Shown here: in pieces, positions 1,833 through 27,447 of the stretch
How positions within the stretch are numbered: the stretch's first letter is position 1
How the letters are laid out: each line of letters opens with the position of its first letter
NCBI RefSeq assembly: GCF_000213575.1
Contig: NZ_GL892011.1
Coordinates: 115,790 to 179,789 of the forward strand
DNA length: 64,000 bases
Direction: 5' to 3'
Source of the DNA: Dysgonomonas mossii DSM 22836
GTDB taxonomy: Bacteria > Bacteroidota > Bacteroidia > Bacteroidales > Dysgonomonadaceae
The notes under the pieces: model-generated
Told to the model about the DNA's origin: nothing
Database searches by the model: none
What the model saw: only the letters and a program-made list of their open reading frames with translations
Translations under genes and position numbers: made by a program

Positions 1833-2705
1833 TTATTTTAGTGAGTTTCTTTCTTTTGGATATTTATAAAATCCTTCTCCTGATAGATAACCCAGTTTCC
1901 CTTGTTTTATAAAATTCTCTTTTAGATATTGTGCAAATAATTTTGCTTTCAGATCTCCATTAGAAGCTATATTATATACTGTATTTATCCCAACTATATC
2001 ATATATTTCGAAAGGGCCAACAGGTGAGCCTGTTGCAATGCGCCATGTTTTATCTATGGTTTCAATGTCGCTAACACCTTTTAGGTAGAGTTCGGTAGCA
2101 GCTGCCATAAAAGGCATTAACAATGAATTTAATATATAGCCACGTTGCTCTTGTTTTACAAGGATAGGAATCATTCCAATAGCTTCTGCAAATTCTATAA
2201 CAGTATTATACGAATCAGCATCAGTCTCTGAAGATTTCATAATTTCAGCAATATTGCAGTGAAATAATAAATTGGAAAAATGTAATGCTAAAAATTTATG
2301 AGGACGCCCTGTAAAACCCATCAAATCGCTGGGTAGCATTGTTGACGAATTGGTGGTGAAAATTGTCTTTGCAGGAGCAACTCTGCCCAACTCAGCGTAT
2401 AATTTTTGTTTTATTTCCATATTCTCGGGTATAGCTTCTATTGTAATATCAGCATCTTGAACAGCTTCAGGCAGATTAAATGAATACGATATATTATTAA
2501 AAGTGGCATCCATTTCATCTTCGGTAGCATGAGCCTCTCTCAGATAGATGTTCTTTAATAGCTCAAGATTCTCGATGACTTGACTGTATAAATCAACATT
2601 GATGTCATATATTGTGACATTGAACCCTTTAAAAGCAGTCTGAAATGCTATTTGAGAGCCCATGTTACCTCCCCCAAGAATAGTTATATTGGATATTTTA
2701 TTCAT
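1833..2705 (-). CDS. 3-hydroxyacyl-CoA dehydrogenase family protein
   Basis: This 290-residue soluble protein should interconvert 3-hydroxyacyl and 3-ketoacyl thioesters using NAD. It begins with a Rossmann fold (GGGNMGSQIA, residues about 11-20) and has the family's NSS motif near residue 118, followed by a LHFSN motif carrying the presumed catalytic histidine. The usual sequence there is HFFNP, so this copy is a divergent member. The C-terminal helical domain (from about residue 190) contains the family-like GSPVGPFEIYDIVG. It overlaps the upstream membrane glycosyltransferase gene by 4 bases and closes the biosynthetic operon. It may act on the synthase product or supply a hydroxylated or oxidised acyl chain; that role is inferred from position only. 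Confidence 0.85.
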   Translation of the reverse strand: MNKISNITILGGGNMGSQIAFQTAFKGFNVTIYDINVDLYSQVIENLELLKNIYLREAHATEDEMDATFNNISYSFNLPEAVQDADITIEAIPENMEIKQKLYAELGRVAPAKTIFTTNSSTMLPSDLMGFTGRPHKFLALHFSNLLFHCNIAEIMKSSETDADSYNTVIEFAEAIGMIPILVKQEQRGYILNSLLMPFMAAATELYLKGVSDIETIDKTWRIATGSPVGPFEIYDIVGINTVYNIASNGDLKAKLFAQYLKENFIKQGKLGYLSGEGFYKYPKERNSLK

Positions 2706-4294
2706 CTTCTTTGTTTTAGTTTGTATAGTTGAAGTATCTCTATATTCTTTTCGTCTATTGTATTGATAATCGTATCTGTTAAAATTAGAGTGTAATTTTC
2801 TTTGAATGCAGGCAGATTTAAAAAATATTCTTGATTCCCTATTTTCCGCCTCTTTTGCAATTTTGTGCTTCCATCTATATTCAATAGAGGCAAGGGCATA
2901 ACTATAAACTTAATTTCTTTATTTTCAATATATTTTGTCTGTTCATCACGCATTTGAGGATATGATTCGTATGTTAGATTCGGTGAAACAAAATAACGAA
3001 TATTAGGAACGATTTTACATGTTGTGAATAGGCTATTACCCAGACCAAAACCAACATTTAGGAGTGTCGGATTTTGTTCCTTAATTATCTCATCATGAAT
3101 TTTCTGCGTAAGTAATCCGGGTTTCAGTGAAACTGTAGTCCCAGCGATCTTACTATTACCCAAATCAGTCTGACTATAGCCTATATATATCATAGAACTT
3201 GTAATGATAATTAAAAAAGCAGGTGTAATATATTTTACTATCGTAATAAATCCGGATATGTATATAAACAAACTTAATACACCCAATAAGCTAAATATAA
3301 GGAATACAATGGGATAATACATTTGAAAAACCGGAGACATAAATATAATAATATAAAGAGCAACGCCGGATAATAGTAAAGCATATTTACCTAAAGTATT
3401 CTTAATATGTTTTACGGGAAAATAAAAGACTCCGATAAGTGTCATAAAGAACAGTGCAAAAGGATCCATAAACAGGTATACGATGCGAAGTAGTACTAAT
3501 TGTATAGAACTACTTATCGATTGTAATTCAGCATATTTTCTATTCAATTCAATATAAACTGAATATGCCTCATGGAGTGCATTATTTATATAGAGGTACA
3601 AAAGAATAGGAATTGCAATAACCAAAAGTCCAGCAATATACGCAACCATATTTACTGCAAAACTTTTGAACGCTCTCTTCCGCAAAAGATTTAAAAATAT
3701 AGCAGCTAAAGGGAAGAACCAAAAAACTAATAAATTGAGTTTTATGAAGAGTACCATAGAACACATAATTCCATGTATAAACATTACTGACGGCTTATGG
3801 ACAGGTACACTTTTTTCTTTAAAGTATCTGACAAAGTAATATAAACTAATACACTCGAATACAAGAATAAACTCCTCAGCCGATCCTCCCGCTTTCATCA
3901 TTTTCAGTATAAAGACAGGGAAAATAATAGCTACTATATATGCAAAAGTATTATCCAAATATAATTTAGATAGCTTATAGATATAATAAACCATTGTAAA
4001 CCATGCAATCCATTGAATCAGAAACATACCAAAGAAGGAATTATTTGATATAAGATATCCCAGACCATATATAAAGAAGATGAGAGGTCCTTTATGATCA
4101 AAAGTTTCAGTATAAAGGGTTCTGCCATTAAATATGGCTTTTGCTACATTGAAGTAAATATTTACATCTGCCCATTCATTTGAATAATACAAAGGAGACA
4201 TATGAGAACAGATGATTAAAAGAAAAAAAACATAACAACCGAGAAGTATTATTATTTTATTTTCGGTCAGATGGTTAAAAAAGCTCATGCTCAA
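2702..4294 (-). CDS. GT-C (ArnT/PMT-like) integral-membrane glycosyltransferase
   Basis: The protein has 530 residues with about ten or more hydrophobic helices over residues 1-370 and a soluble C-terminal part of about 150 residues. The first loop after the first helix holds NEWADVNIYF and TFDHKGPLIF, resembling the acidic catalytic motif and the DHKPPL-like motif of GT39/GT83 enzymes. These enzymes move a sugar from a polyprenyl-phosphate carrier to an acceptor on the outer face of the cytoplasmic membrane. It sits between a GT1 glycosyltransferase and the dehydrogenase in the biosynthetic operon, which suggests that it extends the glycosylated product after export. The sugar and acceptor are unknown. 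A start at the next ATG (4288) is equally possible. Confidence 0.75.
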   Translation of the reverse strand: MSMSFFNHLTENKIIILLGCYVFFLLIICSHMSPLYYSNEWADVNIYFNVAKAIFNGRTLYTETFDHKGPLIFFIYGLGYLISNNSFFGMFLIQWIAWFTMVYYIYKLSKLYLDNTFAYIVAIIFPVFILKMMKAGGSAEEFILVFECISLYYFVRYFKEKSVPVHKPSVMFIHGIMCSMVLFIKLNLLVFWFFPLAAIFLNLLRKRAFKSFAVNMVAYIAGLLVIAIPILLYLYINNALHEAYSVYIELNRKYAELQSISSSIQLVLLRIVYLFMDPFALFFMTLIGVFYFPVKHIKNTLGKYALLLSGVALYIIIFMSPVFQMYYPIVFLIFSLLGVLSLFIYISGFITIVKYITPAFLIIITSSMIYIGYSQTDLGNSKIAGTTVSLKPGLLTQKIHDEIIKEQNPTLLNVGFGLGNSLFTTCKIVPNIRYFVSPNLTYESYPQMRDEQTKYIENKEIKFIVMPLPLLNIDGSTKLQKRRKIGNQEYFLNLPAFKENYTLILTDTIINTIDEKNIEILQLYKLKQRR

Positions 4295-4313
4295 AAAATA
4301 TTCTTTTTAGTTA

Positions 4314-5504
4314 CTATTTTACTGCTATAATTTCTTCCAACAATTCGGCAGCTCTATTATTACCTCCCGCATCTATAAAAGATTGTTGAATCTCTTTAGC
4401 CGCTTTTTTATATGTAGGATTGTATAATAGCTCATCTACTGCATGTTCGATATCTTTAACGCGCATACGACTATATTTAATGCGAATACCACAGCCGTAG
4501 TTTTGAATAAGTTGTGCTGTATGCGATTGATCGAAGGCCATTGGAATAATGAGCATAGGTATACCATTCATAAAAGTATCGCAAGTTGTATTTAACCCTC
4601 CATGTCCGATTACAACATCTATATGTTTTAATAATTCCGATTGAGGCACATATCCTTGCACTATAAAGTTATCAGGCCATTCATCCAATATGTTAGGATC
4701 TGCAGCCGCTATAACAGTAACAGGCTTATCTTTTAACGCTTCAATCATGCGGCTAAAGAAATCTTTCCGACTTTGTACCAATACTGTTCCTATCGAAATG
4801 TATATCTTAGGACGATCTCCCATTGCCTCAAGCTTTTTCCAATCGAATGGAGTATTATCCGGCCTTCCTGTCAATGCTCCTATAAACTTCATATAAGGAG
4901 GTACAGATGAATCATCTAACCCACAAAATAACTGTGAGGTATAGTACATATTTAATAATTGGGATTGAACAAACTCTTCATCTCCATCTATACCAACAAA
5001 ACGTTGTAAATCGATAACTGATTTGTGTACCCATTCCGTAACTTTAGGTGCACTTTGAGGGTCATTTAAAGCATTCGGTGTAATAGGCGTTATAGTGGCA
5101 AATGAAATATTCTTTAATCGAGCGGATAGCCCACCAACAAAAGTAATACAATCATTTACTATGACATCGGGTTTATATTGCTCTACGATCTCATTAAACT
5201 CGTCTATCATCATTTTAGCAAAAGGAATATAGGTATCTTCCAGCCCTAATTTAAGAGCTTCAAGTGCCGGCATATTTGCTCCTTTATTTTGCAGCAAGAT
5301 TATTTGTTCTATCTCCTTTTTATTTTTACTCTCTGTCTTTTCCATATAGAAGTACTTAGCTCCAGACGGAAAGAGTTTCATATTAAGTGTAGTCATACCA
5401 GCCCAAGCAACATCATGACCTCTTTCTAAGAGAGTGCCGCCTATACTTAATGTTGGATTTATATGCCCCCAGAAAGGAGGAATTACAAATAAAAATTTTG
5501 ACAT
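4314..5504 (-). CDS. GT1-family (MGT-type) glycosyltransferase, copy 1
   Basis: This 396-residue cytoplasmic enzyme has the two-Rossmann GT-B layout. The N-terminal acceptor half begins FLFVIPPFWGHINPTLSIG, the usual glycine-histidine start of macrolide and carotenoid glycosyltransferases. The C-terminal half carries the nucleotide-sugar motif GHGGLNTTCDTFMNGIPM followed by the FDQ sequence that contacts the sugar. It is expected to move a sugar from a UDP- or dTDP-sugar to a hydroxyl on a small lipophilic acceptor. It lies 17 bases downstream of a second, related glycosyltransferase gene, so the product may receive two sugars. Specificity cannot be read from the sequence. Confidence 0.88.
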   Translation of the reverse strand: MSKFLFVIPPFWGHINPTLSIGGTLLERGHDVAWAGMTTLNMKLFPSGAKYFYMEKTESKNKKEIEQIILLQNKGANMPALEALKLGLEDTYIPFAKMMIDEFNEIVEQYKPDVIVNDCITFVGGLSARLKNISFATITPITPNALNDPQSAPKVTEWVHKSVIDLQRFVGIDGDEEFVQSQLLNMYYTSQLFCGLDDSSVPPYMKFIGALTGRPDNTPFDWKKLEAMGDRPKIYISIGTVLVQSRKDFFSRMIEALKDKPVTVIAAADPNILDEWPDNFIVQGYVPQSELLKHIDVVIGHGGLNTTCDTFMNGIPMLIIPMAFDQSHTAQLIQNYGCGIRIKYSRMRVKDIEHAVDELLYNPTYKKAAKEIQQSFIDAGGNNRAAELLEEIIAVK

Positions 5505-5521
5505 TTAATTCTGTTTTGAGG

Positions 5522-6721
5522 TCATAGACCAATTTGTTTTGTAAGTATGTTTTCTAATAACTTTACAGCCTTAGTGACGCCTCCGGCTTCTTCGAATGAT
5601 TTTTGGACTGTTTGCGCATTCTCTGAATATTTCTTATCATAGAGAACTTTGTTTACAGCATCTTTCAATTGCTGTGCCTTAAATCTATTGAAGTTTAATC
5701 GTATTCCTGATCCGCTATCTACAACTGTGCTTGCAACATAGGATTGGTCATAGGCAACAGGTAAAACAACCAGAGGCTTGGCATATGACAACGCTTCACA
5801 AACAGTATTGTGTCCTCCGTGACATACGACTGCATCCATTAGAGGAATAAGTTTTAGTTGTGGAATCTGTTTGCAAACAATGAAATTATCAGGGATATAA
5901 TCAAACAATTCAGGATCAGAAATAATTACAACTCCCATCATTTCATTTTCGAAAGCTTCTGTCACTTTCCTTAGAAACTGTTGTTTGAGGCTGTGATCAA
6001 ATGTTGTTCCTATTGTGACTAGTATTTTGGGACGATTGTTCATTGATTGAAGTTTACACCAATCAAAATCATCGGTAAAATCTCCTCTATTGATTACTGG
6101 ACCTATAAACTGGTAATAATTATCTAAGTCAGATTCTCCAAATAGTTTCTTAGACGTATATACAATTGTAAGTAATTTGGAGCAATCTAAACGCTTATCA
6201 CTATCAAGACCTACACTCTTTTGAAACTTTATAATCTGGTCTCCTTCCCATACATGAATCATCGGTAAAGCTTCGTTTACCTTTATTGCCGCCGGAGCAG
6301 TTACAGATGTTACATAAGGTATATTCTTTTGTATTGCTGCTACTGCTGCTGCAAATATCTGATGATCATTAATAATGATATTAGGTTTATAAGCATCAAT
6401 AAGTTTTTTTATACCATCAAGCATACCCATATTCATGGGTGTTAATACGTCATCATACAAGAATTTTAAACTATCAAGTCCATAAACAGCTTTCTTTCCT
6501 AGTTCCAGAATTTCATTTTTTATCCGCTCTTTCTCGTGTTTGTTTATATCAGTGTCGAGTAAAAGAAATGTGCCTCCGTTGGGTATTCTTTTTTCTAATT
6601 GAGGGTCAATACTTATCCATGCCACTTCATGCTTGTTTTTAAGCAATTCAGCCCCCAACCCTAAAGTAGGATTAACGTGACCTGTAAGTGGCGGAACAAT
6701 AAATAAAAATCTGCCTTTCAT
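5522..6721 (-). CDS. GT1-family (MGT-type) glycosyltransferase, copy 2
   Basis: The 399-residue protein is a diverged paralogue of the neighbouring glycosyltransferase. It starts FLFIVPPLTGHVNPTLGLG and has the C-terminal nucleotide-sugar motif CHGGHNTVCEALSYAKPL with a YDQS sequence. The overall length and motif spacing match copy 1, which points to an old tandem duplication. It overlaps the upstream alpha/beta hydrolase gene by 4 bases (ATGA type), so it is translated in the same operon. Differences in the acceptor half suggest that it uses a different acceptor position or sugar, though this is inference. Confidence 0.88.
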   Translation of the reverse strand: MKGRFLFIVPPLTGHVNPTLGLGAELLKNKHEVAWISIDPQLEKRIPNGGTFLLLDTDINKHEKERIKNEILELGKKAVYGLDSLKFLYDDVLTPMNMGMLDGIKKLIDAYKPNIIINDHQIFAAAVAAIQKNIPYVTSVTAPAAIKVNEALPMIHVWEGDQIIKFQKSVGLDSDKRLDCSKLLTIVYTSKKLFGESDLDNYYQFIGPVINRGDFTDDFDWCKLQSMNNRPKILVTIGTTFDHSLKQQFLRKVTEAFENEMMGVVIISDPELFDYIPDNFIVCKQIPQLKLIPLMDAVVCHGGHNTVCEALSYAKPLVVLPVAYDQSYVASTVVDSGSGIRLNFNRFKAQQLKDAVNKVLYDKKYSENAQTVQKSFEEAGGVTKAVKLLENILTKQIGL

Positions 6722-7482
6722 TTCATAAATTCTAATAGTTTCTCAATAATCCATTGTGGTTTCTGGATAGGCAAGTTATGGTCTCCACGTCCTTCCAGTA
6801 AATATGAATTTGGAATGATCTCTTTCAATAGATTTCCGGCTAATAAACAATCCGAATCAGAACCATATAATAATAAGGTTGGTACTTTAATAGGATTGTT
6901 CGATAATATATCAAACAAATTATTATCTATATCAAAATCTTCCTTAATTGAAGTATGGTTGAATAAGTATTCATAGAGTTTTCTATTCTTTTCAATCTGC
7001 CTTTTTCCGGGCTGTAAAGATGTAGACTCAGCATAGTTATTCAAATACTGATCTATAAATTTATTTCCATATTTCTGGAGTACTTCAGGAGCATCACCTT
7101 CATCCGGCTTGGGAGACTCTATCAGGCTTAGTTTTTCCACCCTATCAGGATAAAGCATTACCGTTTTTAAGGCTATAAGACCACCATAGCTGTATCCAGC
7201 CAAGTGTACTTTCTTTAAATTCAGAAAATCAAGTAGAGCTATCAAGTCATCAGACATCGCCTCAAGATTATATCCACAGTCAACACGTTCACTCATACCG
7301 TGGCTTTGCAAATCATATAATACAATATGAAAGTGCTTAGCCAGTTCGGGTGCTATGTTAAAGTAAAATACAGACATGTTGGTAAACATACCATGAATCA
7401 TTACAATAGTCTGGGATGCTTCAGAGTTCATTTCCAATAAATGAATTTTTTTGTTATTTATCTGAATGATTGCCATCAACAA
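6718..7482 (-). CDS. Alpha/beta-fold hydrolase (possible thioesterase)
   Basis: The 254-residue protein has the alpha/beta hydrolase signature: the oxyanion-region HGMF motif near residue 30, the nucleophile elbow GYSYGG with Ser98, an acidic residue in GSDSDCLL near residue 211, and His235 in GDHNLP. No signal peptide is visible, so it acts in the cytoplasm. Its start overlaps the free ACP gene by about 29 bases (a start at 7476 is also possible) and its end overlaps the glycosyltransferase gene. Neither synthase has a thioesterase domain at its C-terminus, so this enzyme is the best candidate in the cluster for releasing the acyl chain from the carrier protein. That role is inferred. Confidence 0.82.
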   Translation of the reverse strand: MLMAIIQINNKKIHLLEMNSEASQTIVMIHGMFTNMSVFYFNIAPELAKHFHIVLYDLQSHGMSERVDCGYNLEAMSDDLIALLDFLNLKKVHLAGYSYGGLIALKTVMLYPDRVEKLSLIESPKPDEGDAPEVLQKYGNKFIDQYLNNYAESTSLQPGKRQIEKNRKLYEYLFNHTSIKEDFDIDNNLFDILSNNPIKVPTLLLYGSDSDCLLAGNLLKEIIPNSYLLEGRGDHNLPIQKPQWIIEKLLEFMK

Positions 7483-7759
7483 TAAAATTTACAATATCTT
7501 TTATATTCAACTTTACAATCTGATCAAGATCCATTGCTGACAACCATTTTGTAAAGTCTATATCCGTCCCGTATTTCACTCTAACTTTTTCAGCAAAAGC
7601 TACTAGTTCAATACTATCCATCTCCAGATCTTTTGTGAAATTACTATTTTGAGTTATATCAAGTTCTTCTGCTATATCTGCACCTATTATATCTGAAATA
7701 AACTGATGCAGAATATTAAACACCTGGTCTTTTTCATCTTTTAGCATTATTGTGTCCAT
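7454..7759 (-). CDS. Free-standing acyl carrier protein
   Basis: This 101-residue protein fits the acyl carrier fold, with the phosphopantetheine attachment motif EMDSIELV and modified Ser49. It is acidic and helical as expected. The ORF start at 7759 overlaps the upstream synthase gene; the ATG at 7747, which shares a base with the synthase stop codon (TAATG), is an equally good start and would give 97 residues. Next to two synthases that already carry two ACP domains, a third separate ACP may accept the finished chain or load the starter unit. It should be modified by the transferase domain at the end of the adjacent synthase. Confidence 0.88.
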   Translation of the reverse strand: MDTIMLKDEKDQVFNILHQFISDIIGADIAEELDITQNSNFTKDLEMDSIELVAFAEKVRVKYGTDIDFTKWLSAMDLDQIVKLNIKDIVNFIVDGNHSDK

Positions 7760-10700
7760 CCTATTATGTAGTTTTTATATTTAAATATCCTTATTTCACA
7801 ATCTTCAATAAAAAGAATGTCTTCATTTATTCTTTTTACTTCATATCGTTTAGGGTTTCCTTGAAGTCCAACACCTAACATTTTTCCATACGCTTCTTTT
7901 GCTACCCAAAAACGAGTGCTCCATTCTGCGATATCCTTGTCCTTGATCAATTCGAGTTCGTAAGGAGTGAATGAAATTTCTAAAAAGTCTTTTGTTCGTT
8001 CCTCTATTGTTTCAATGTCGATACCAACAGGTTTTTCGGAAACAATACTCACACTGGCTCCGTTTTTGTGGGCTAAAGAAATCTCTAATCCTTTTGTTTC
8101 TTCTAGACCATACACATCAGGTTTGCCATGATCATCATATTTTATAAAGTATTCAATGGGATATGTTAATTTATCACACTTACTCTGAACATACCACCTT
8201 AAACTATCTTTAAGTGCAATCCTGCTAGTAAGATAATCTTTCCGCTTATTTAGAGGCAGAGAAGCTTGTCGTTTCTTTTCGGGCTGATTCAGGTATCTTT
8301 TTCTAAGAAATTCCAAAACACCTGTCTTATTATATATACTTTCTGATAAGAATACTCCGGGGACGATTTGTTCAGCTATAAAATTTTTTCCGGGATTCAA
8401 AGTCATTTCCCATAACAAATTGTCAAACTCAAATCGTCTGTTTTGCCAACCTTTAACAATACACCACACTTTACCATCTATTTTTAGCACCATTTCTGCT
8501 GTCGTAAAGTCTTTATCAATAGTTTTACTCAAACAGATGCATTCAAATAATCCTTCTTGATCATGCATATCTTGATAAAAAGTAATTTCCTGAACTTTTA
8601 CTGGAAAGGTTATATAGTTTATGTCTAGAATAAGATGTAAATACAAACCATAAGTTTGTCCCATATTATCGAGAAGAGAGCCTTTGCCTGCCTTTTTTCT
8701 TATATAAGATCTTATACCTTTTTCTGTGACATTTGTAACCTTTTCTATTCCCTGATATTCAATCCCATGAAACATATACTTTTCATAGATTTGCTCTGGT
8801 GTAGGTAATGGTCTGATATCTTCTCCCAGATCAATATAATCTTCATAATATGAATCAGGCTTAGAAAATGAGTTTCTTAATGTAACCTCCCCCGATGCAT
8901 AATTCTTGATGTTTAAAGAAAGTAACTCTTCGGACTTCCACACACCATTTATTTTCTGTTCAAAGGGTGTATGAACTTCCATCCACTGATAAACACTGAT
9001 AGGTCCAATTCTTACAATCTTTTTTGACAAATCCTGTCTATGTGCAGCTTCAGCAATCAACTCAAAGGTCATAGTCATTGGAATTACAGGATTTAAGTCT
9101 TCCACATAGTCCCAATTTGCCGGTTGCTTAACTAATGAGTGCCCTATTAGTGTAGGGTGTGTATCTAATGATACGTATAAATCTTCTTCAAATGACGTTC
9201 CTATCTTAGACCCATTTTTTATAACGGTAGGTTTTAAATCTTTTTCGATAAGGGACGAAATGGTATTTCTTTCTTTCAATAGTCCGGCTAGCTCCATCTG
9301 CATTTGTGATATCTCTTTCATATTCTCATTCAGGGCTGCCATTATCGGATGAGAAGTCTCCATTGTCAATGAGTCAATATCAACAGAAGTCTTTTTTTGC
9401 ACACTACTTTTCATATGACTACTTAAAAGAGGAAAGTCTGATTGAAAGTCCATGAGCATCTGTAGATTCATTCCTTTTTTCTTATTCAGTTTCTCTACAT
9501 TAAGAAAAGACATATCTACATCCCGACCTTCTATATAAAGCAATGCCATCACGCGTCTCAATTGTTCTAATGTTGTTCTTTGTGTACTCACCTCAGATAT
9601 AGAGCTATAGGGTTTGTTTGCCAATATATCATCTACAAATCCGACAAGACTCCCTCCTCCAACCTGAATAAATACCCGCACATTTTCTTTATCATATAGC
9701 TTTTCTATAAGCTCTCTAAATCTCACAGTTTCTATAAGATGCTTGACTGATAATGCTTTAATATCATGAGCTTCGGTTGGATAAGGCTCCAATGTATTAC
9801 TAGACCACATAGGTACACTCGGATCAATAAATTCAAGATGTTGGAACGAATCCTCAAGCAGGTGAAGCCTATCTTTTATGAAAGGAGTATGAAATCCAGA
9901 TTGATATGGTAAAACCTGAAAGAAAATATCTTCCTGCCTAAGAGATTCGGACAACTTCTTAAGAGCATCTTCGGTAGCGCATAATAATACTTGATTCGGA
10001 CAATTATCATTAGACAAGTAAAGATTAGGTATTGAGTCTAGATACTTCTTAACCCTCTCCCGCCCTACACTGACAGCAATAAAGAAAACGCCATCTATTT
10101 TATATTGACTCGCATCTAAGCAGTTGATAAGTTTTTTGATTGATTTACCTGATACCATACCTGATGCTTCCACGCCGAACCATTCACCTAAACTGTGTCC
10201 GACGTTCATATCTGATTTTATATTTAATGTCTTCAACGACATGTCCATTGCTTTGCTGATACGATACAATCTTAAGACATTGTCTATAATTTCACTTTCT
10301 GCTGATCTGTATTCCTCTTCCGGTAAAGAAAATTTAAAATAGTTGATCAAGCTCTCGATTTCAGGATTCACTCCGGGATCATAACCCGGATACATAAATG
10401 CAATCTTTCCTCCATTCTTTATAAGTGGTTTATTTGTAAACCAAATATCTTGACGTCCTTTCCATATTAAATCTTTTTCAATAAACTTTATAGCTTTTTC
10501 TATCCTATCAGGCGTTGGGTTGAATAGAACCAGACGGTAATCTCCATCCTTATTAATAGATGCTGTTTGTCCATTACGTAAAGTCTTTATCAAGGCATCT
10601 TTGGAACGTGCACTTATTGCTATTACCTTATCCTGAAATGGACTATCTTCTATACTAGTATTTAAAGATTGTTTTTCTCCGTATGCTTCTAAGATGACAT

Positions 10701-12060: not shown

Positions 12061-12067
12061 TTCTGAA

Positions 12068-15000
12068 TCAATTATTTAAAAAGCTTTTTACATCTTCTGA
12101 TCCACCCATCACCAGTATATGATTCTCTTTTCCATATTTAAGCTCATTTACAAAATATTCAGCTCCTTTCCTCAGAGGAATCAACGAAACCCCACGTTTC
12201 ATGAACTCAGCTTCTAATGTGTCATTTACCATACCTGTTCCTTTCCAGGGTCCCCAATTAATAGTGAGTATTCTGGCTTCAACTTTATCATTTAAGATTG
12301 GAGCAATATAATCGAAGACACTGTTTGCTGAAGCATAATCAGATTGTCCCTTGTTCCCATAAGATGATGCCACGCTACTGAACATTACAAATAGTTTTAG
12401 GTCGGAACGTAATTCATCCAGTAAGACATGCAGTGGAATGACTTTGGTAGAATACACTTTATCAAAAGATTCAAAAGTTTTATGTATAAATAATTTATCG
12501 TCCAACAAGCCTGCAGCATGAAATATCCCGTCTATTCTGTTATAGGTATCATATGTTTTTTTTATAAAACCTCTCAGTGCTCCTTCATTTTTTATGTCTA
12601 AGGATATATATGTTACTTTCGCTCCGTTTTGTTCTATTTTTGCAACATTTTCATTTATCTGATTCGTCTTGAATATCTTTTGTACTTTCTTTTCTATTTC
12701 GCCGGGAGATTTCAGGTTTTCTTCAGTGATCAGATATTTACGTATCTTGTCCTTTGAGTCCAACGATTTATACTTATCAAATTCTTTTGTAGGAGTGTCT
12801 GAACGTCCTACAAGAATATAGTTACATGGATATTCTTTTGACAGTTCGCTAATCAACTCCGGCGTAATCCCCTGTGCTCCTCCAAATACCACAATTACAG
12901 CATCTTTGTCGAGAGAAAGATGAGAACTTCCATTTTCAATAAGAGTGACAGGTTTAGAATTTACAAAATATCTCTTATTATCCTTATAGATTATTTCTGT
13001 ATAGGTATCATCTTGTGTTAATAATTCATCTACTACTATTTGGGATAAAGAATCTGATTCGAAGATAGAATGTGATACTATTGCCCGGAACGTAATTGTT
13101 GGGAACTCATGTGCAAGGCTCTTTATCAGCCCTGGGAAGCCTTGAATCTCTTTCAACTTAGATACTCCTTCGGTGCTTTTAATATTTCCAAGTACATCAC
13201 TGAATGTATACACCCATTTGATCCTAGCAATATCTACATTCTTGATCATACTAAACACTTCTTTGATACTGTATTTCCGAGGTGATACCGAAGAGTTGAG
13301 TATCACTAGCCCATCATACTGAGAAAGATTCTCATCTCCTTGTATCAAGTCAACAATAGCTCCATTTGCCTCCATTGCTATTTTAACCTTTTGAGCATAT
13401 TCACCATTGTCATCCGTAAGGGCAAATCGCTTTCCTTGTATCTTATTATTTTCAGAGTTTAGGGTTGTTTCTTCAAGTTCAAAACTCATTCTTATCAATT
13501 CATCTGCAATGGTTTTATTATCTTTTACTGTTATCTGCTCAACTTGAATTGTTTGCCCTGTTTGAGACTGGGGTATAGAATCTTTATTCTCAACACCATT
13601 AGCCAATTCTTTTATCCAATCAATTAATCCATTAAGAGTTTTTACTGAAGCTAGTTTTTCAATTGTATCATCAGCATCCTCAATACTACCGGATATATTA
13701 AGTTTTTCTCTCAATGAGCCTATAATCTCCATGCGTTTGATAGAGTCAATACTGAGATCTGCTTCCAAATCTAGATCCAATCCAAGCATATCCGCTGGAT
13801 AACCAGTTTTTTCACTAACGGTTTCAAGAAGCAAAGCCCTGATATCATCGATTGTTATGGCTTGAGTTGGAGTAATAGCAACAGAATGAACTACATCTGG
13901 CACAATTGCACCTTGTGTCTGACTTATACTTGAGTTGGCTAATTCCTTAATCCAGTCGATCAAACCATTAAGAGTTTTTACAGAGGCAAGCTTTTCTACT
14001 GTATCTTCTGCATCCTCCATACTCCCTGATATGTTAAGCTTTTCTCTCAAAGCACCAATAATTTCCATTCGTTTGATAGAGTCTATACTCATATCTGCTT
14101 CTAAGTCTAAGTCAAGACCTAACATTTCGATCGGATAGCCCGTTTTTTCGCTAACAGTCTCGAGCAATAGGCCTTTAATATCGTCTATAGATAAGACTTG
14201 TGTTGATCTTTCAGCAGATTTAGGCATTGACGCATTTATTGCCACAGGTTGTTGTATTTGCTCTACCTGTTGTGAAACAGTGCTTACCGGTAAGACCTGT
14301 ACTTGCTGCACGGGGATTATTCGTGTTGGAGTTGATATATTACTGCTAGGAGTATATCCCAAATAGCCGAGCATGACATCACGCTGGCTCTGCATCATCA
14401 TTCTCATACTATCCAGATACTCTAATATTACTTGATCTGAAGAAGAAAGTCCTGAAGATTGATTATTATTGGGGTTATTAACCATATTTTTTAAGTTCAT
14501 TATAGGTTGTGTTATTGGGTATGCACCTGTCGAAGGCATTCGTCCATCAGAAGGTATAGCATTGTGTCCATTTATATGCCATACAATAGGACTCTTTTTG
14601 TATTGTTCAGGCTCATCTATATTTACGATAGATGTATTGCGGTTTTCAAAGAGTTTTTCAACGTCAACAGATTTACCTGTCGACAAATATTTTGCAATAG
14701 TATGTAATATGAAAGTTACGCCATTGAAACTTTTATTTTCTGTTTCAAAAGCAGATACTTTATCCCCTAATATGGATTGTACAAGTCCAGTAAGAACTCT
14801 ACCGGGTCCAACTTCGATAAATATACGTGTACCTTCATTGTACATATTTTCAACTTGCCGGGTAAAATGTACAGGTTTGATAAGGTGTTCCGCTAATCGA
14901 TTTTTTATTTCTTGTGTTTCTATCGGATAAGGTTCCGCTGTTGTATTAGACCATACAGGCAACCTTAGTGTTTTAAAGTCAACCTTTTGCAACACGTCGC

Positions 15001-18000
15001 CGTACAGATCTCTTGATTTATGTAAAAGAGGACTATGAAATGCACATGCTACATTAAGCTCTTTATATGCAATATTTTTATTACTTAGTTTTCGCATAAA
15101 AGAATTAATTCCTTTGGTAGAACCAGCCAGTACAATTTGTTTCGGCGAATTGAGGTTCACAGCCCACACATCCTTTTCACCATCCAATAGGGCAATTATC
15201 TCTGTTTCGGAGAGACTGACAGCTATCATTTTCCCTTTATCCTCTTCTATTGCATCTAATATAGATAAAGCTCTTTTACGACTTAATGGCACTAGTTCCT
15301 CGGCATCAAAAGCACCGGCAAAACATAAAGCCGGCAACTCTCCATAGCTATGACCTGCCACCATATCAGGCACAACTCCTAATGATTTAAGAAACTCAGC
15401 GAATGCAAAATCTACAATTCCAAGTAATGGCTGAGCATTTTGTGTATCGGTGATAACTTTCTCTTGCTCTTTACGCGTTTCTTCATCGAAGGCTGAGTAA
15501 GGAAATAATATCTTCTCATATTCTTTATGCTTGGTAAGTAAGCGACGCATTGCGGGAAAGGCAACAAACATATCGCGAGCCATATTTACTCTTTGACTCC
15601 CTTGTCCGGAAAACATAAATGCAACCTTTCCTTCTTTCACCTTTTTTAAATAAATCCCATATTCTTCTTTTTCTAGAAGAGCTGTATCAATTCTATTCTG
15701 TAATTCTATGCAATCACTTGCAATTATTGATAGTTGAACTTCTTTTTGGCTGTGTAAAGCTAAACTGTAAGCTATATTTTTAATATTGATTGTATTATTG
15801 TAGCTCAACAGTTCTTTTACTTTCTGTAATTGCTGTTTAGCTTCTTTTAGTGAATCCCCGCGAAATACAAATAGTTCTGATGGCCATAGAGGTAAACTGC
15901 TATTATGATCTTCTTCACTTTTATGATTCTCCATCACTACATGAAAATTAGTTCCGCCAAAACCAAATGCACTGACTCCGGCAATTCTTTTCTCACTATC
16001 CCAATATCCCGAATGTGAATTAAAGACAAAAGGACTACTGTCTTTATCGTAATAAGGATTCGGTTTATTAAGATGTAATGTAGGCGGTTGGACTTTGTAG
16101 TAAATAGATAAAGCAGTCTTGATGACGCCTGCAATACCTGCTGCACATTTAGCATGTCCTATTTGCGTTTTTACAGAACCTAGCAATGTTTGACCTTTGA
16201 CCGCTCCTGATTCAAGAAACATATCAGTTAATGCCCTTAACTCCGTTCGATCCCCTACTACCGTTCCCGTACCATGAGCCTCTATCATTTCTACCTGTGA
16301 TGGTAAAATCCCTGCATTTTGATAAGCTCTTTGCAATGCTTTTATCTGTCCATTTCTGTTTGGGGCAGTCATTCCCAGGCTTTTTCCATCACTACTACCT
16401 CCCATTCCTTTGATAACGGCATATATCTTATTTCCATCACGTTCGGCATCAGCTAACCGTTTCAGGACTATAACGCCAATGCCTTCCCCCAAGGCAATAC
16501 CATCGGAATCTGCATCGAATGAAGCAGAATAACCTTTACGGGATAATGCATGCGTACATGAAAACATTAAGAAGTCGTTGATCCCGTTATGTAAATCGGC
16601 TCCACCTAAAAGTACCATATCAGAGCGTTTGGAGAATAATTCCTGGCATCCTAAGTCCAAAGCAGCAAGAGACGATGCACATGCTGCATCTACTGTATAG
16701 TTACGTCCCCCCAGATTTAAACGATTGGCGATTCTACCTGATATCACATTTGATAATACTCCGGCAAAAGAATCTTCATTAAGACGAGGCAGGGAATTTT
16801 TTAATATATCTGGTAATTCTCCAAAAACCTGTTTTGCATAGCCTCTGAAACCATAACTTGCCGCTAGTTCTGTTGCTCCTTCTGCACCGAATATAACGGA
16901 AGTATTTTCTAAATCAATTTCGGACAGGTTTTCATATCCTGCATCTGTTAAGGCTTGCTTAGCAACCAAAAGGCTCAGTAATTGTGTCGGTTCTATAGAC
17001 GCAAGTGATTGAGGTGTCATTCCAAACTCAAGAGGATCAAAGTCTATCGATGGAATAAATCCGCCCCATTTCGAGACCACTTTATCTGTATCAGTAGAGT
17101 TTGGATCATAATATAGATCTTTATTCCAGCGACTATCGGGAACCTCAGTTATACAATTTTTGCCAAGAACGATGTTTCTCCAATATTCTTCAATATTATG
17201 CGCATCGGGGAAAATACCCGAAATTCCTACAATCGCTATATCTAATGGTTGTGTATTTGATGTTGGCAAAGCAATATCAGGAAGCTGAGAAAGCAGTTCG
17301 TTATTATCTACAGCTACATGCTTATGCAATTCATCCAGAGTTATTTCCTTCTGATTGAGAGCTGCTATTTGTCCTATCATATAAAGCCCTTTTTCTTTTT
17401 GCTCCTCGTCGTTCAATTTTACAAGATCTGTTCCTATACGTTCAATGCCTTTTGTTGCAATTCTCGAACGACCAAGGTTAAGCTCCTCTAATCTGATCCA
17501 AATTTCTTTACTATCCAGATTTTGTTGCTGTAGTTTTTCTTTTTCCTTACCGAAATATTCTGTAAATGGAGATTTTAGAGATTGTGTTTCTTGTCCCGGG
17601 GCTGCTTGCAGAATAACTGTATCATTTTCTTCAATCGCCAACTTTTGGAATTCAGGGAGGATGGCTTTTGTCTCTACAGCCTCTTTTGTGTACAGATACG
17701 AAGACCCCATTAGTACCCCTATTTTGGCTCCTTTAGCATCGAGTGTAGCAGACATTATAGATACGAATGCAGAAGAAAATGCGTTATGTATCCCACCCGC
17801 AAAAAATACACTGAATGCAGACAGGTTATCTTCTTTTAGTAATCTGTATATCTGTCTTTCCCATAAGATAAAGCTGGAAAGAGGACCTATATGTCCACCA
17901 CTTTCACGCCCTTCGAATACAAAGTTCTTCGCCCCTTCTTTAAGAAATATATCTAACAATATTTGAGATGGAACATGAATAAAAGCTTTAATACCTTCTT

Positions 18001-19186
18001 TTTCAAATGGTTTTGCCAAAGCTGGGCTTCCTCCGGCTATCAGTACCACAGGAGGTCTGTACTCTAATATATATTTTGTTTGCTCTTCGCGTTGTTTTGT
18101 AGGTATAAAGCCTAGCAGTCCTACTCCCCATACTTTATCGTTGAGTAACCGACTGGATTCTGCTATCAGGTTGCGGGCAGCATCTCCGGTTGTCATACTC
18201 ATGGCAATAAAAGGTAATGCTCCCGCATCAGCTATATTACAAGCAAATTCGGGAACATCGCTTACTCTGGCCATTGGCCCTTGTGCTATTGGGTATTTTA
18301 TACCTAAACTTTTTGCGAGTTTACTATCAGATTTGATTGTTTGCAGTCTTTTTGCTTGCTGTATATGACCGTATATAGCTTCATAAAAGCTAGAAACAAA
18401 TGTGTTAAGGTTTTTATATTTTTCTACAAAGTCAATAGATAATGAAATATCTTGCCCTATAGGTAATATATTCTTATTAATATCTAATCCTCCCAATAAT
18501 GGTATAACATCCAAATATTTAGTATTGACAGGTAATTTAGGAGAATTTTTCCTCAACAATATTCTGAAATTGTCAATTACGGTAGTTTCACTTCCACTCA
18601 GTTTACTAAAAATATTTTTCTGATCTTTGGTTAAACCGCATTCAGGAAATAAGGAAATCTGACTATCCATAATAACCCCCTTAGCCCCTAAAGCCAAACA
18701 AGCGGCAGAAGTATGTATACCGACTCCGCCTTGTATATAAATATTTATTCCTTTATTTAAATATTTATCCGCTATACTTTGGAAAAGGATGAATGAGGAC
18801 TGAGCTGACACTTTTCCTGTTCCTTCATTTCCTTTTACGATAATATTACTGATACCGCTATCGACTACTCTTGCAGCTTCATCTAAAGAATCTACCTGAC
18901 ATAATTTTTCTATATTTTCGCTTACTGATATATTCATACCAGCAGGAAAAATCACTCTGGTTACATTTGGTGGAAGGTCTAATTTTAATGAAGTCTCATC
19001 TACAAAACAAACCCCAAAAGATTCAGTTGTAGATTCACTCATGATATCTAAGGATTCTTGTGCTTTTTGCAGATTCCTACCAAGATGCAATACGGGATAT
19101 GCACCGGTCTTGATCGTTTCTAAAGCTAAAACAGGATTTGGTATCTCGAAGGGAGATACGATTAGTAGCTCTTTGTAGTGTTGCAT
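12068..19186 (-). CDS. Type I polyketide/PUFA-like synthase: NMO-NMO-KS-AT-ACP-ACP-KR
   Basis: This 2372-residue protein carries most of the assembly line. Residues about 1-250 and 295-560 are two nitronate-monooxygenase (PfaD-type enoyl reductase) barrels; the second is complete (YPIAQGPMARVSD, EGRESGGHIG), the first is shorter and lacks the start of the barrel. The ketosynthase spans about 650-1080 with Cys836 (DAACASS), the HGTG histidine and QIGHAK. The acyltransferase spans about 1185-1490 with GQGSQ and Ser1280 (GHSYGEL). Two near-identical ACPs follow with Ser1703 and Ser1815 (DSIKRM). A ketoreductase closes the protein (GGAQGITPEL, GQSDYASAN). With the dehydratase of the partner, all reductive steps are present, so an iterative, reduced chain is likely. 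The GHSYGEL and KR sequences resemble PfaA of PUFA synthases. Confidence 0.92.
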   Translation of the reverse strand: MQHYKELLIVSPFEIPNPVLALETIKTGAYPVLHLGRNLQKAQESLDIMSESTTESFGVCFVDETSLKLDLPPNVTRVIFPAGMNISVSENIEKLCQVDSLDEAARVVDSGISNIIVKGNEGTGKVSAQSSFILFQSIADKYLNKGINIYIQGGVGIHTSAACLALGAKGVIMDSQISLFPECGLTKDQKNIFSKLSGSETTVIDNFRILLRKNSPKLPVNTKYLDVIPLLGGLDINKNILPIGQDISLSIDFVEKYKNLNTFVSSFYEAIYGHIQQAKRLQTIKSDSKLAKSLGIKYPIAQGPMARVSDVPEFACNIADAGALPFIAMSMTTGDAARNLIAESSRLLNDKVWGVGLLGFIPTKQREEQTKYILEYRPPVVLIAGGSPALAKPFEKEGIKAFIHVPSQILLDIFLKEGAKNFVFEGRESGGHIGPLSSFILWERQIYRLLKEDNLSAFSVFFAGGIHNAFSSAFVSIMSATLDAKGAKIGVLMGSSYLYTKEAVETKAILPEFQKLAIEENDTVILQAAPGQETQSLKSPFTEYFGKEKEKLQQQNLDSKEIWIRLEELNLGRSRIATKGIERIGTDLVKLNDEEQKEKGLYMIGQIAALNQKEITLDELHKHVAVDNNELLSQLPDIALPTSNTQPLDIAIVGISGIFPDAHNIEEYWRNIVLGKNCITEVPDSRWNKDLYYDPNSTDTDKVVSKWGGFIPSIDFDPLEFGMTPQSLASIEPTQLLSLLVAKQALTDAGYENLSEIDLENTSVIFGAEGATELAASYGFRGYAKQVFGELPDILKNSLPRLNEDSFAGVLSNVISGRIANRLNLGGRNYTVDAACASSLAALDLGCQELFSKRSDMVLLGGADLHNGINDFLMFSCTHALSRKGYSASFDADSDGIALGEGIGVIVLKRLADAERDGNKIYAVIKGMGGSSDGKSLGMTAPNRNGQIKALQRAYQNAGILPSQVEMIEAHGTGTVVGDRTELRALTDMFLESGAVKGQTLLGSVKTQIGHAKCAAGIAGVIKTALSIYYKVQPPTLHLNKPNPYYDKDSSPFVFNSHSGYWDSEKRIAGVSAFGFGGTNFHVVMENHKSEEDHNSSLPLWPSELFVFRGDSLKEAKQQLQKVKELLSYNNTINIKNIAYSLALHSQKEVQLSIIASDCIELQNRIDTALLEKEEYGIYLKKVKEGKVAFMFSGQGSQRVNMARDMFVAFPAMRRLLTKHKEYEKILFPYSAFDEETRKEQEKVITDTQNAQPLLGIVDFAFAEFLKSLGVVPDMVAGHSYGELPALCFAGAFDAEELVPLSRKRALSILDAIEEDKGKMIAVSLSETEIIALLDGEKDVWAVNLNSPKQIVLAGSTKGINSFMRKLSNKNIAYKELNVACAFHSPLLHKSRDLYGDVLQKVDFKTLRLPVWSNTTAEPYPIETQEIKNRLAEHLIKPVHFTRQVENMYNEGTRIFIEVGPGRVLTGLVQSILGDKVSAFETENKSFNGVTFILHTIAKYLSTGKSVDVEKLFENRNTSIVNIDEPEQYKKSPIVWHINGHNAIPSDGRMPSTGAYPITQPIMNLKNMVNNPNNNQSSGLSSSDQVILEYLDSMRMMMQSQRDVMLGYLGYTPSSNISTPTRIIPVQQVQVLPVSTVSQQVEQIQQPVAINASMPKSAERSTQVLSIDDIKGLLLETVSEKTGYPIEMLGLDLDLEADMSIDSIKRMEIIGALREKLNISGSMEDAEDTVEKLASVKTLNGLIDWIKELANSSISQTQGAIVPDVVHSVAITPTQAITIDDIRALLLETVSEKTGYPADMLGLDLDLEADLSIDSIKRMEIIGSLREKLNISGSIEDADDTIEKLASVKTLNGLIDWIKELANGVENKDSIPQSQTGQTIQVEQITVKDNKTIADELIRMSFELEETTLNSENNKIQGKRFALTDDNGEYAQKVKIAMEANGAIVDLIQGDENLSQYDGLVILNSSVSPRKYSIKEVFSMIKNVDIARIKWVYTFSDVLGNIKSTEGVSKLKEIQGFPGLIKSLAHEFPTITFRAIVSHSIFESDSLSQIVVDELLTQDDTYTEIIYKDNKRYFVNSKPVTLIENGSSHLSLDKDAVIVVFGGAQGITPELISELSKEYPCNYILVGRSDTPTKEFDKYKSLDSKDKIRKYLITEENLKSPGEIEKKVQKIFKTNQINENVAKIEQNGAKVTYISLDIKNEGALRGFIKKTYDTYNRIDGIFHAAGLLDDKLFIHKTFESFDKVYSTKVIPLHVLLDELRSDLKLFVMFSSVASSYGNKGQSDYASANSVFDYIAPILNDKVEARILTINWGPWKGTGMVNDTLEAEFMKRGVSLIPLRKGAEYFVNELKYGKENHILVMGGSEDVKSFLNN
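13597..14192 (-). repeat. Direct repeat encoding the tandem ACP domains
   Basis: Two copies of about 260 bases, 13597-13856 and 13933-14192, are offset by 336 bases (112 codons). They encode nearly the same ACP sequence around DSIKRMEIIG. Many third-codon positions differ, so the duplication is not very recent, while the protein sequence has been kept. Confidence 0.85.
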
Positions 19187-19237
19187 TATTAAATAGTTGT
19201 AGTTTGTTTTATATGTTTGTCTTTCTTGTTTTATTAT

Positions 19238-20602
19238 CTAATCTATTGCATATATATATTTCTCTTTAAGTTTATGTATTTGCCAAATATAAATTATAAC
19301 AGCTAATATTGTTGATGCAACATCAGCTAATGGTATTGAAATCCATACCCCATCCAATTGAAAAAAAAGAGGTAAAATGAATAACAGCGGTACTAGAAAA
19401 AGGAATTGCCGTGTTAGGCTTAAGATGATTGCTTTCGTAGGCATTCCTATAGATTGGAAAAAATTAGAAATGACCATTTGCCAACCACTAAGAGGTAATA
19501 CAATCGTTATTATTTTTAAAACTCTAGAGGCTTTACTTGCCAATGTAGGACTAGGATTAAATGGACTGACTGCAATATCTGAAAAGAGTAATCCACCCAT
19601 CATACCGAGAAATCCGATACCGACACCGGCTTTTATTGCGTGATTTACTGTAGATATTACCCTTTCTATCTTGTTCGCCCCATAATTGTACCCAACGATG
19701 GGTTGCATTCCTTGTGTTAAACCAACAATGATGAGTACAACAACAAGATTTAATCTATTGGCTATTGCATATGCTTCTACAGCGATGCTGTCTCCGTAAG
19801 TACTTAACCTGTTATTTATAAAAAAGACTACAATGGAAGCTGCTACTTGCATCAGAAATGGAGAAACCCCGACACTCATTATAGCCCATACAATTCTTTT
19901 ATCCAGATTTAACTTATGCTTATATAGTGTTAATGTATTATTTCTATCAAGAAAATGAATCATAAAGATAACGAAGGAGCTAAACGCGGCTATTGAAGTG
20001 GCAATTGCAGCACCTCTCATCCCCCATTCGAATATAAAAATGAAAATAGGTGCAAGTATAATATTTAGAATAACACCAAGCAGCATAATATACATTGCTT
20101 TTTGAGGATAACCCGAAGCACGCATAACACTGCTCAATACGAAGCCTAAATTAAGGAAAATACAACACGGCAGATAAAAGATTAAGAACTCGCGAGCAAA
20201 ATTATAAGTATCTTTTGTTGCTCCGATTATATGTAATAGTGGATCGATAAAGATATAAGTCAGAAGAATGAAGAATCCGGTTAACAGTATTGTCAAAACA
20301 AAAGCGTTTCCTAATACTCTATCTACCTTATATTTGCAACCTTCACCCATATAAATAGCAACACGAGTGGCTGCACCTGTACCGACGAATGCTCCTAATG
20401 CAGTAAAGAATGTCATTATAGGAAAAATGAGCCCTAGCCCACCAATGGCATGATCTCCTAAATTAGGCCCATGTCCAATATAGATACTATCCACAATATT
20501 GTAGATGGCAACAACTAAGGAACCGATAATAGCCGAAATGGAATATTCTCTCAGTAGTTTTGTTATTTGTTCCGATTCTAATCTATTTTGTATAGACCCC
20601 AT
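19238..20602 (-). CDS. MATE-family efflux transporter
   Basis: The 454-residue protein has about twelve hydrophobic helices and the MATE features PIMTFFTALGAFVGTGAATR in the first half and VGLTQGMQPIVGYNYGA in the second. MATE proteins export organic molecules in exchange for sodium or protons; some relatives flip lipid-linked substrates. The gene is the first of the biosynthetic operon, 51 bases before the large synthase and just after a strong promoter, so its most likely substrate is the cluster product or an intermediate. It could also be an unrelated multidrug exporter that happens to lie here. Confidence 0.9.
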   Translation of the reverse strand: MGSIQNRLESEQITKLLREYSISAIIGSLVVAIYNIVDSIYIGHGPNLGDHAIGGLGLIFPIMTFFTALGAFVGTGAATRVAIYMGEGCKYKVDRVLGNAFVLTILLTGFFILLTYIFIDPLLHIIGATKDTYNFAREFLIFYLPCCIFLNLGFVLSSVMRASGYPQKAMYIMLLGVILNIILAPIFIFIFEWGMRGAAIATSIAAFSSFVIFMIHFLDRNNTLTLYKHKLNLDKRIVWAIMSVGVSPFLMQVAASIVVFFINNRLSTYGDSIAVEAYAIANRLNLVVVLIIVGLTQGMQPIVGYNYGANKIERVISTVNHAIKAGVGIGFLGMMGGLLFSDIAVSPFNPSPTLASKASRVLKIITIVLPLSGWQMVISNFFQSIGMPTKAIILSLTRQFLFLVPLLFILPLFFQLDGVWISIPLADVASTILAVIIYIWQIHKLKEKYIYAID

Positions 20603-20696: not shown

Positions 20697-20728
20697 CAAA
20701 CTTATATAAATATATTTTACTAAACAAA
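20697..20728 (-). promoter_or_regulatory. Promoter of the biosynthetic operon
   Basis: On the minus strand TTTG (20728-20725) is followed after exactly 20 bases by TAAGTTTG (20704-20697), a full match to the Bacteroidetes -33/-7 consensus. Transcription would start near 20690 and give a leader of about 90 bases before the MATE gene. No other strong promoter match was noticed between the cluster genes, which overlap or lie 7-51 bases apart. The rest of the 20603-20941 gap holds only A/T-rich sequence and the terminator at 20868-20908. Confidence 0.65.
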
Positions 20729-23805: not shown

Positions 23806-23862
23806 AAAATACTTGCTATTGGAAAATATTTGCAAAGAAAAATAATATTTTTTGATTGACAA

Positions 23863-24869: not shown

Positions 24870-24882
24870 ACCCAGATTACTT

Positions 24883-26136: not shown

Positions 26137-26153
26137 TTAAAAAAAAACAGAAC

Positions 26154-27410: not shown

Positions 27411-27447
27411 TTTACTGTAAAGAATAAAAAATAGAAAATTAAATAAT

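Follow-up and report, generated by a model that had tools for sequence, protein, structure and literature searches.

Positions 1833-20602 of a 64,000-nucleotide stretch of the Dysgonomonas mossii DSM 22836 genome (contig NZ_GL892011.1, positions 115,790 to 179,789; hereafter the window, to which all coordinates refer) are occupied by a run of nine genes, all on the minus strand, in the order MATE, SYN1, SYN2, ACP, hydrolase, UGT2, UGT1, GTC, and HCDH. These encode an exporter, two large synthase proteins, a free acyl carrier protein (ACP), an alpha/beta hydrolase, three glycosyltransferases (GTs), and a 3-hydroxyacyl-CoA dehydrogenase; gene calls and domain searches thus bear out the content that the original prediction had given to nine co-directional genes. 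Judging from their sequences, the nine genes would form an ArsA/ArsD-like iterative synthase, related to polyunsaturated fatty acid (PUFA) synthases, together with accessory genes, and we regard it as fairly probable that they make a long-chain acyl lipid carrying two or three sugars.

Gene run and domain architecture

Since the intergenic gaps do not exceed 51 nt and four adjacent gene pairs overlap, the nine genes are likely transcribed as a single predicted transcript. About 95 nt upstream of the MATE start, at 20697..20728 on the minus strand, a pattern match marks a candidate promoter, TTTG-N20-TAAGTTTG, which follows the Bacteroidota-type consensus; the window holds three matches to this pattern where 1.56 are expected, so that the candidate is weak on its own. 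Consensus σ70 promoters are no commoner in the window than in shuffled sequences. The host genome comprises 28 contigs with an estimated completeness of 99.99%, and the closest named full-length homolog of SYN1 is a Dysgonomonas sp. protein with 93% identity. The first gene of the run encodes a MATE-family exporter (19238..20602; PF01554 with E = 1e-45, TIGR00797 above cut-off), an ortholog of which also precedes SYN1 in two sister clusters (genomes G015 and G013) and in Apibacter adventoris (locus L109). MATE is not the upstream neighbor of SYN1 in those loci with PapA-type endings (described below) that were read far enough upstream.

SYN1 (2372 aa; 12068..19186) is ArsA-like, or PfaD-PfaA-like, and consists of an enoyl reductase (ER)-like half barrel followed by ER, ketosynthase (KS), acyltransferase (AT), two ACP, and ketoreductase (KR) domains. 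Its score of 1034.3 passes the NCBIfam PfaA cut-off of 1010.1. Active-site residues were counted in full-length frames only (76 to 77 rows for SYN1 and SYN2, 46 to 77 rows over all proteins), a sample that excludes the A. adventoris SYN2 lacking its KS and the broken frames of Chryseobacterium sp. E1 (L183), whose cluster genes lie in many short frames, through either decay or an error-rich assembly. The N-terminal ER-like part (residues 1-280; 18347..19186), whose counterpart in G013 matches the window's second barrel (26.5%, E = 6e-6), has Lys125 where an ER has His; the His occurs in 0 of 76 rows but is present in G325, and the fold model (mean pLDDT 61.6) was too poor for use. From its sequence, this part is probably not a working ER. 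The ER proper (residues 289-622; 17321..18322) is FabK/PfaD-like, matching PF03060 and a FabK structure (E = 2.3e-15), and keeps His432 in 76/76 rows. It is followed by KS1 (residues 647-1090; 15917..17248), in which Cys836, His971, and His1011 are each found in 76/76 rows, by AT1 (residues 1187-1475; 14762..15628) with Ser1280 in an AFHS motif, by two tandem ACPs (13652..14167; two PF00550 stretches) with Ser1703 in 74 of 76 rows (the other two are gaps) and Ser1815 in all 76, and by the KR (residues 2097-2315; 12242..12898; PF08659), whose Tyr2284 is likewise kept in 76/76.

SYN2 (1437 aa; 7747..12060) has the order KS-AT-dehydratase (DH)-4'-phosphopantetheinyl transferase (PPTase). KS2 and its C-terminal extension (residues 5-503; 10552..12048) retain Cys209 in 75, His344 in 74, and His383 in all of the 77 full-length rows; both KS domains of the synthase thus have intact catalytic residues, and because the catalytic Cys is kept, KS2 is by this criterion not a chain-length factor. 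AT2 (approximately residues 560-830; 9571..10383) matches PF00698 at 601-801 and has Ser623 and His724 in 77/77 rows. The DH (approximately residues 946-1210; 8431..9225; His974 and Asp1131) is missed by Pfam, yet it has the fold of a double-hot-dog polyketide synthase (PKS) dehydratase and is homologous to an ArsD-like protein of Beijerinckia; no convincing sequence relative of it was found in the PDB. The built-in PPTase (residues 1344-1416; 7813..8031; PF01648) is preceded by the motifs P1a (HGKP at 1311) and P1b' (ISLAH at 1327), while P0 and P1b were not detected in SYN2. Proteins of 969 to 977 aa with the order AT-DH-PPTase, resembling the SYN2 of A. adventoris, also appeared in the protein search (P0152-P0155, P0166).

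Downstream of SYN2 lie the free ACP (7454..7759; PF00550), with Ser49 in 74/74 rows, and the alpha/beta hydrolase (6718..7482; PF00561), with Ser98 and His235 in 77/77; the Asp position that we checked in the latter is not conserved and was probably the wrong residue. The hydrolase is likely the releasing thioesterase, and it also matches macrolide esterase models below their cut-off. The three GTs fall into two classes, as had been predicted. UGT2 (5522..6721) and UGT1 (4314..5504) are GT1-type enzymes, the former similar to YjiC-like structures, with His15/Asp119 in 76/76 rows and His14/Asp118 in the 46/46 unfused rows, respectively; both match macrolide-inactivating and OleI families, always below cut-off, and neither reaches the 260 bits of the macrolide glycosyltransferase model TIGR01426 (190.0 for UGT1, 184.3 for UGT2). 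GTC (2702..4294; PF13231) is a PMT_2-type membrane glycosyltransferase of the GT-C class. HCDH (1833..2705), the last gene, scores above the cut-off of NF006143 and has one distant paralog (25%) in the host genome.

Conserved core, exchangeable endings, and likely transfer

The original prediction had called the two-protein synthase unusual. This is not supported, given that all but one of the 80 named Bacteroidota loci have homologs of both proteins, as do two Streptomyces plasmids. The named loci are the best 80 of 190 matches to an alignment of the DH, so that the sample is biased toward relatives of that alignment; a locus search with SYN1 alone found 0 relatives among 34 pattern matches. 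By tblastn, SYN1 is present in 79 of the 80 loci, SYN2 in 80, ACP and hydrolase in 78 each, and UGT2 and UGT1 in 77 each, and the complete core SYN1-SYN2-ACP-hydrolase-UGT2-UGT1 stands in the same order and on the same strand in 76. The one locus without SYN1, L180, is truncated at that point. UGTs are absent from three loci: L113 and L167, both of which run into the end of their contig, and L128, a different type of cluster with no ACP, hydrolase, or UGT homolog within its stretch; L113 also has a split or double SYN2. Pedobacter panaciterrae O48 carries two copies of the cluster in opposite orientation on one contig (L122 and L123), which could reflect a duplication or an assembly artifact.

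Behind this core, the loci end in one of two ways. UGT1 is followed by PapA_a in 71 loci, PapA_b in 71, and a small membrane protein in 61, with at least one PapA in 72, while GTC is found in five; the two endings are mutually exclusive, with both present in 0 of the 80. In a Chryseobacterium genome (G270), the two PapA proteins match the Condensation, AATase, and PapA_C models. All five GTC loci come from the genus of the window or from Apibacter; one of them (L108) is a metagenome-assembled genome titled Prevotella sp. TD116_bin59 that carries a GTC-HCDH cluster, and its title is probably a misnomer. HCDH itself occurs in 1 of the 80 loci (L108) and in G015, which restricts it, among the clusters read, to the genus of the window. 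UGT2 and UGT1 are fused into a protein of approximately 800 aa in 28 of the 80 loci, namely in Chryseobacterium, Flavobacterium, and Sphingobacterium or other Sphingobacteriaceae.

The distribution of the cluster is patchy. Within the window's genus, three of 25 genomes have the DH-PPTase part of SYN2, which also turned up in 4/395 genomes of a phylum sample and 2/395 of a class sample (each including the host genome), in 1 of 249 sampled Flavobacteriaceae, in 24 of 251 sampled Sphingobacteriaceae, and in 67 of 118 sampled Chryseobacterium genomes; the last three groups were identified through loci whose DNA matches named records exactly. Among 60 relatives of the host, G013 and G015 have the two-protein set, and G027 has a larger relative of it, a related cluster (L043, L044) with further KS-bearing proteins.

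The GTC-bearing clusters belong together in both synthase trees: the seven rows in question (the window, G015, L108, three Apibacter rows, and L112 of the Apibacter genus) form one clade with support 100 for SYN2 as well as SYN1. The SYN2 value was obtained after the long rows (L128, L102, and Streptomyces) had been dropped and still carries a long-branch warning, support having been only 80 in a first tree that included them; L113, with no SYN2 frame above 900 aa, was left out. These trees are quick searches with SH-aLRT support only on 32 to 40 hand-picked rows, SYN1 under LG+G4. Forcing the three Apibacter rows to group with six Chryseobacterium rows, both genera being Weeksellaceae, costs 631 (SYN2) and 1750 (SYN1) log units and is rejected with p-AU values of 4.25e-8 and 8.24e-7. 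Nearly every genome of the window's genus, 23 of 25, has a GTC homolog (E up to 1e-10), as do 25/61 genomes overall, compared with 7 of 320 Weeksellaceae genomes, all seven from the Apibacter genus and all with the gene directly behind UGT1. In the GTC tree, whose rows are relatives of the host genome plus the cluster copies, with the Weeksellaceae search as the only check outside, the copies from the clusters group in a single clade (100/100), itself nested in a clade of 22 rows, of which the other 15 all belong to the window's genus.

On the basis of these trees, the cluster was likely transferred between distantly related bacteria of different orders. Because the cluster copies of GTC nest among rows of the window's genus, Dysgonomonas to Apibacter is the likelier direction, with donors sampled among the host's relatives and Weeksellaceae only; a probable history is thus that the GT-C version originated in or close to Dysgonomonas and later passed to Apibacter. 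Insect guts are a frequent habitat of Dysgonomonas. Apibacter is described as a bee gut bacterium in the accessible part of PMC10673953. Alternatively, the two sets of clusters could be alike through common descent, with loss elsewhere and no transfer. The patchiness of the cluster within the window's own genus makes losses likely, and the limited sampling of GTC donors leaves room for such a history; against it stand the rejected grouping of Apibacter with Chryseobacterium and the contrast between a GTC common throughout the window's genus and one confined, in Weeksellaceae, to Apibacter clusters. We therefore consider common descent improbable.

Relation to known synthases

In a KS tree of 43 rows, among which verified PfaA, HglE, and enediyne KSs do not figure, KS1 groups with PfaA-like and Ars-type KSs from Beijerinckia, Persicobacter, and others with support 97/98; together with the PfaA score of SYN1, this upholds the prediction of a reducing iterative synthase of the PUFA or heterocyst glycolipid (hgl) kind. 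The KSs of modular PKSs form a clade separate from KS1, again in keeping with the original prediction, and a modular type I PKS was rejected on this ground. KS2 forms a clade of its own with the KS of the Streptomyces SYN2 (99/99). The Persicobacter KS that groups with KS1 lies in a protein that has five ACP stretches and no annotation. The tree also includes an Apibacter row from a separate, FabF-like gene and a very long Persicobacter row. The features of a secondary-lipid (Pfa-like) synthase sensu Shulse and Allen are all present: KS, ACP, and KR domains, tandem ACPs, which are common but not required in such synthases, and a proximal KS that groups with the validated FAS/PKS set rather than with modular PKSs, here with Beijerinckia.

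The synthase also resembles Type P, the ArsA/ArsD system of Azotobacter vinelandii and Beijerinckia indica. Beijerinckia, which the available text of PMC3098273 lists under Type P, has an ArsA-like protein (NMO-KS-AT-ACP-ACP-KR) with the same domain order as SYN1 and 38.7% identity to it over 1514 columns, so the fused ER-KS-AT-ACP-ACP-KR order, which had also been thought unusual, has a counterpart there. The DH-PPTase part of SYN2 in turn matches the Beijerinckia ArsD-like protein (E = 2e-26), whereas SYN2 differs from it by the extra KS-AT ahead of this part, and the present cluster adds the ACP, the hydrolase, and two GT1 genes and lacks type III PKS partners. The Azotobacter ArsA supplies type III PKSs with C23-C25 fatty acids, according to the available part of PMC4824345. 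No type III PKS was detected in the cluster or the host genome (the control was positive in 3 of 14 genomes), and therefore no resorcinol ring would be formed by that route.

Type N of the same classification comprises Chryseobacterium gleum and Chitinophaga pinensis, and its product was uncharacterized in 2011 (PMC3098273, available text). Congeners of both species hold the present cluster, which might therefore belong to Type N, the overlap being one of genera. The PPTase of SYN2, with P1a and P1b' and without P0, resembles that of Types M-T as far as the accessible text describes them, where P1a and P1b' are reported for M, N, O, P, R, S, and T and P0 for A, B, C, D, F, I, and L (PMC3098273). 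The term "glycosyl" is absent from the main text of that paper. A canonical PUFA synthase (Types A/B; pfaABCDE, with KS-CLF-DH2 in PfaC, where CLF is the chain-length factor) was rejected in view of the two fused proteins and of a KS2 followed by an AT; neither SYN1 nor SYN2 has a Pfam match to the FabA model, and no CLF was recognized in them. The hgl islands (Type F) are similar in placing a PfaA-related synthase alongside a GT, which together give a glycolipid (PMC11804610, in the part accessible), but Type F is reported without a DH and with a KS-CLF-AT protein, whereas our cluster has a DH and no recognized CLF. The fusion pattern also has a precedent in the PUFA-like cluster of Ottowia thiooxydans, compared by description only, where the available portion of PMC13291983 reports a fused pfaD-pfaA and a pfaBC-like protein without canonical KS-CLF, linked to PKS-NRPS (nonribosomal peptide synthetase) genes.

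Outside Bacteroidota, the linear Streptomyces plasmids NBC_00984 and NBC_01243 (L188 and L200) carry SYN1-SYN2-ACP-hydrolase-GT in the same order, with large proteins 28-40% identical to the window's in NBC_00984; they differ in having one GT and a methyltransferase rather than two GT1 genes and a GT-C or PapA ending. With transposase genes nearby, they represent an actinobacterial branch of the pathway.

Such a region has appeared in print under an automatic label. The accessible text of PMC10459008 lists an antiSMASH region 2.2 of Chryseobacterium herbae (495,527-554,653) as "hglE-KS, T1PKS" with no similar known cluster reported; this region contains our locus L156 (NODE_2, 515,179-536,330) if it lies on NODE_2 of the same assembly. 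The same class is given for Apibacter (PMC10673953, likewise in part), and we infer that this region is the cluster of L109-L112. Gene order, GTs, and the exchange between GT-C and PapA are not described in the parts of these two papers available to us. In the open-access papers searched, which cannot exclude a known product elsewhere, we found neither a product for this gene set, which would have refuted the original prediction, nor an account of a core with two glycosyltransferases and two interchangeable endings. The cluster is real, widespread, and, within this search, orphan; its kind is already known.

Proposed pathway and alternative products

We propose that the PPTase of SYN2 would arm the ACPs and that SYN1 and SYN2 would act together as a single iterative synthase, in which KR, DH, and ER, as predicted from their residues, could reduce each unit. 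The free ACP may hold or receive the growing chain. At least one hydroxyl would be left or made, perhaps through a skipped dehydration, with HCDH possibly trimming its oxidation state in Dysgonomonas. On the cytoplasmic side, two sugars would be attached by UGT2 and then UGT1, the hydrolase would free the chain, MATE would carry the product across the inner membrane, and GTC would attach the last sugar outside from a polyprenyl-phosphate donor, giving a di- or triglycosylated long acyl lipid. Since UGT2 and UGT1 are fused in 28 of the 80 loci, they appear to act jointly on one product; because the pair is also constant and has either acyltransferases or a third GT behind it, we assign it to assembly and not to self-protection. 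Because the same core elsewhere ends in two PapA-type acyltransferases, often with the small membrane protein, the final step in those loci is probably an acylation by these PapA/condensation-type enzymes.

Several observations weigh against this proposal. The catalytic Cys or a His of KS2 is replaced in 2 to 3 of the 77 rows, and the SYN2 of A. adventoris (L109, 8747-11656) is only 969 aa long and lacks KS2, which must therefore be dispensable in at least one cluster. In two Sphingobacteriaceae genomes (G961 and G952), SYN1-SYN2-ACP is accompanied by neither a hydrolase nor UGTs, with which the synthase can therefore dispense; these genomes depart from a core made up of synthase, ACP, hydrolase, and one or more GTs, with which the Streptomyces plasmid clusters agree. 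MATE lies outside the stretch covered in most of the 80 loci, HCDH is missing from the Apibacter clusters, and a PDB sequence search with GTC returned no relative. MGT-type GT1 enzymes also inactivate antibiotics and need not build a product. The roles given to AT2, the hydrolase, and HCDH are guesses, and the sugar-bearing hydroxyl is predicted by no single gene of the cluster.

Alternatively, the synthase might make an antibiotic-like polyene or polyketide, with the GT1s, the macrolide-esterase-like hydrolase, and MATE serving self-protection and export. The below-cut-off matches of the GT1s to macrolide-inactivating and OleI families and of the hydrolase to macrolide esterase models fit such a role, as do MATE exporters in general, which often expel drugs; the clostrienose of Clostridium acetobutylicum is reportedly glycosylated. 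That anaerobes make polyketides, clostrienose among them, is documented in the accessible part of PMC5686105. However, a GT1 pair that is kept in 77/80 loci and has a PapA-like gene behind it in 72, besides its frequent fusion, resembles the assembly of one acylated glycoside, the ER His and KR Tyr kept in 76/76 rows argue against a plain polyene, and the KS is not of the modular type, so that we rate an antibiotic as unlikely. Less likely still is a synthase of membrane PUFAs or long-chain fatty acids whose product enters phospholipids while the GTs act elsewhere. A SYN1 score above the PfaA cut-off, the tandem ACPs, and the two genomes with synthase and ACP but without UGTs would suit it, whereas the tight linkage of the GT pair to the synthase, a KS2 that keeps its Cys in 75/77 rows and is followed by an AT rather than a CLF, and a DH that is PKS-type by fold, with no FabA-type Pfam match, speak against it. 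Finally, the synthase could feed a ring-forming partner, as in the Ars system, to yield alkylresorcinol-like phenolic lipid glycosides. ArsA and ArsD are its characterized relatives, and the Type P locus of Beijerinckia also has a GT gene; UGT1 and UGT2, however, have no BLAST match to that GT at E = 1e-3, and with no type III PKS in genome or cluster the alkylresorcinol pathway was rejected, leaving this product very improbable. We retain the glycosylated long-chain acyl lipid as the preferred product.

Several neighboring genes were also noted. The window encodes ABC/MacB-type exporter components at 24174-30069 (an ATPase, two permeases, an adaptor, and an outer-membrane protein). The permeases, the adaptor, and the outer-membrane protein show 43-50% identity to their counterparts in G027 (L044, 12707-17758), which stand after a thioesterase gene, behind the larger relative synthase cluster. 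The exporter may act on lipids of the cluster's kind. Positions 20942-23398 encode an 818-aa fusion of a FAD/NAD(P) disulfide-reductase-like part with rhodanese, TusA, and DsrE domains. Our impression is of a MarR-like open reading frame at 23446-23862 and, between HCDH and a response-regulator gene, of a 110-aa membrane open reading frame (1370-1702) resembling the leftover C-terminal end of a longer membrane protein.

Taken together, these results turn an anonymous "hglE-KS/T1PKS" label into a defined pathway whose core has two alternative endings and whose enzymes can be tested. Because the DH-PPTase part is so frequent in the sampled Chryseobacterium and Sphingobacteriaceae genomes, current lipidomes may lack a widespread glycolipid. 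A natural experiment is provided by the GT-C exchange together with the likely inter-order transfer, with the same core, a different end, and different hosts. It is tempting to speculate, tentatively, that Bacteroidota share an unrecognized family of long-chain lipids that bear two sugars and an exchangeable outer end, acylated in most lineages, that a Dysgonomonas lineage swapped the acyltransferases for its own resident membrane glycosyltransferase, and that the triglycosyl version then spread to the bee-gut Apibacter. If true, one surface glycolipid would be common to unrelated insect-gut symbionts.

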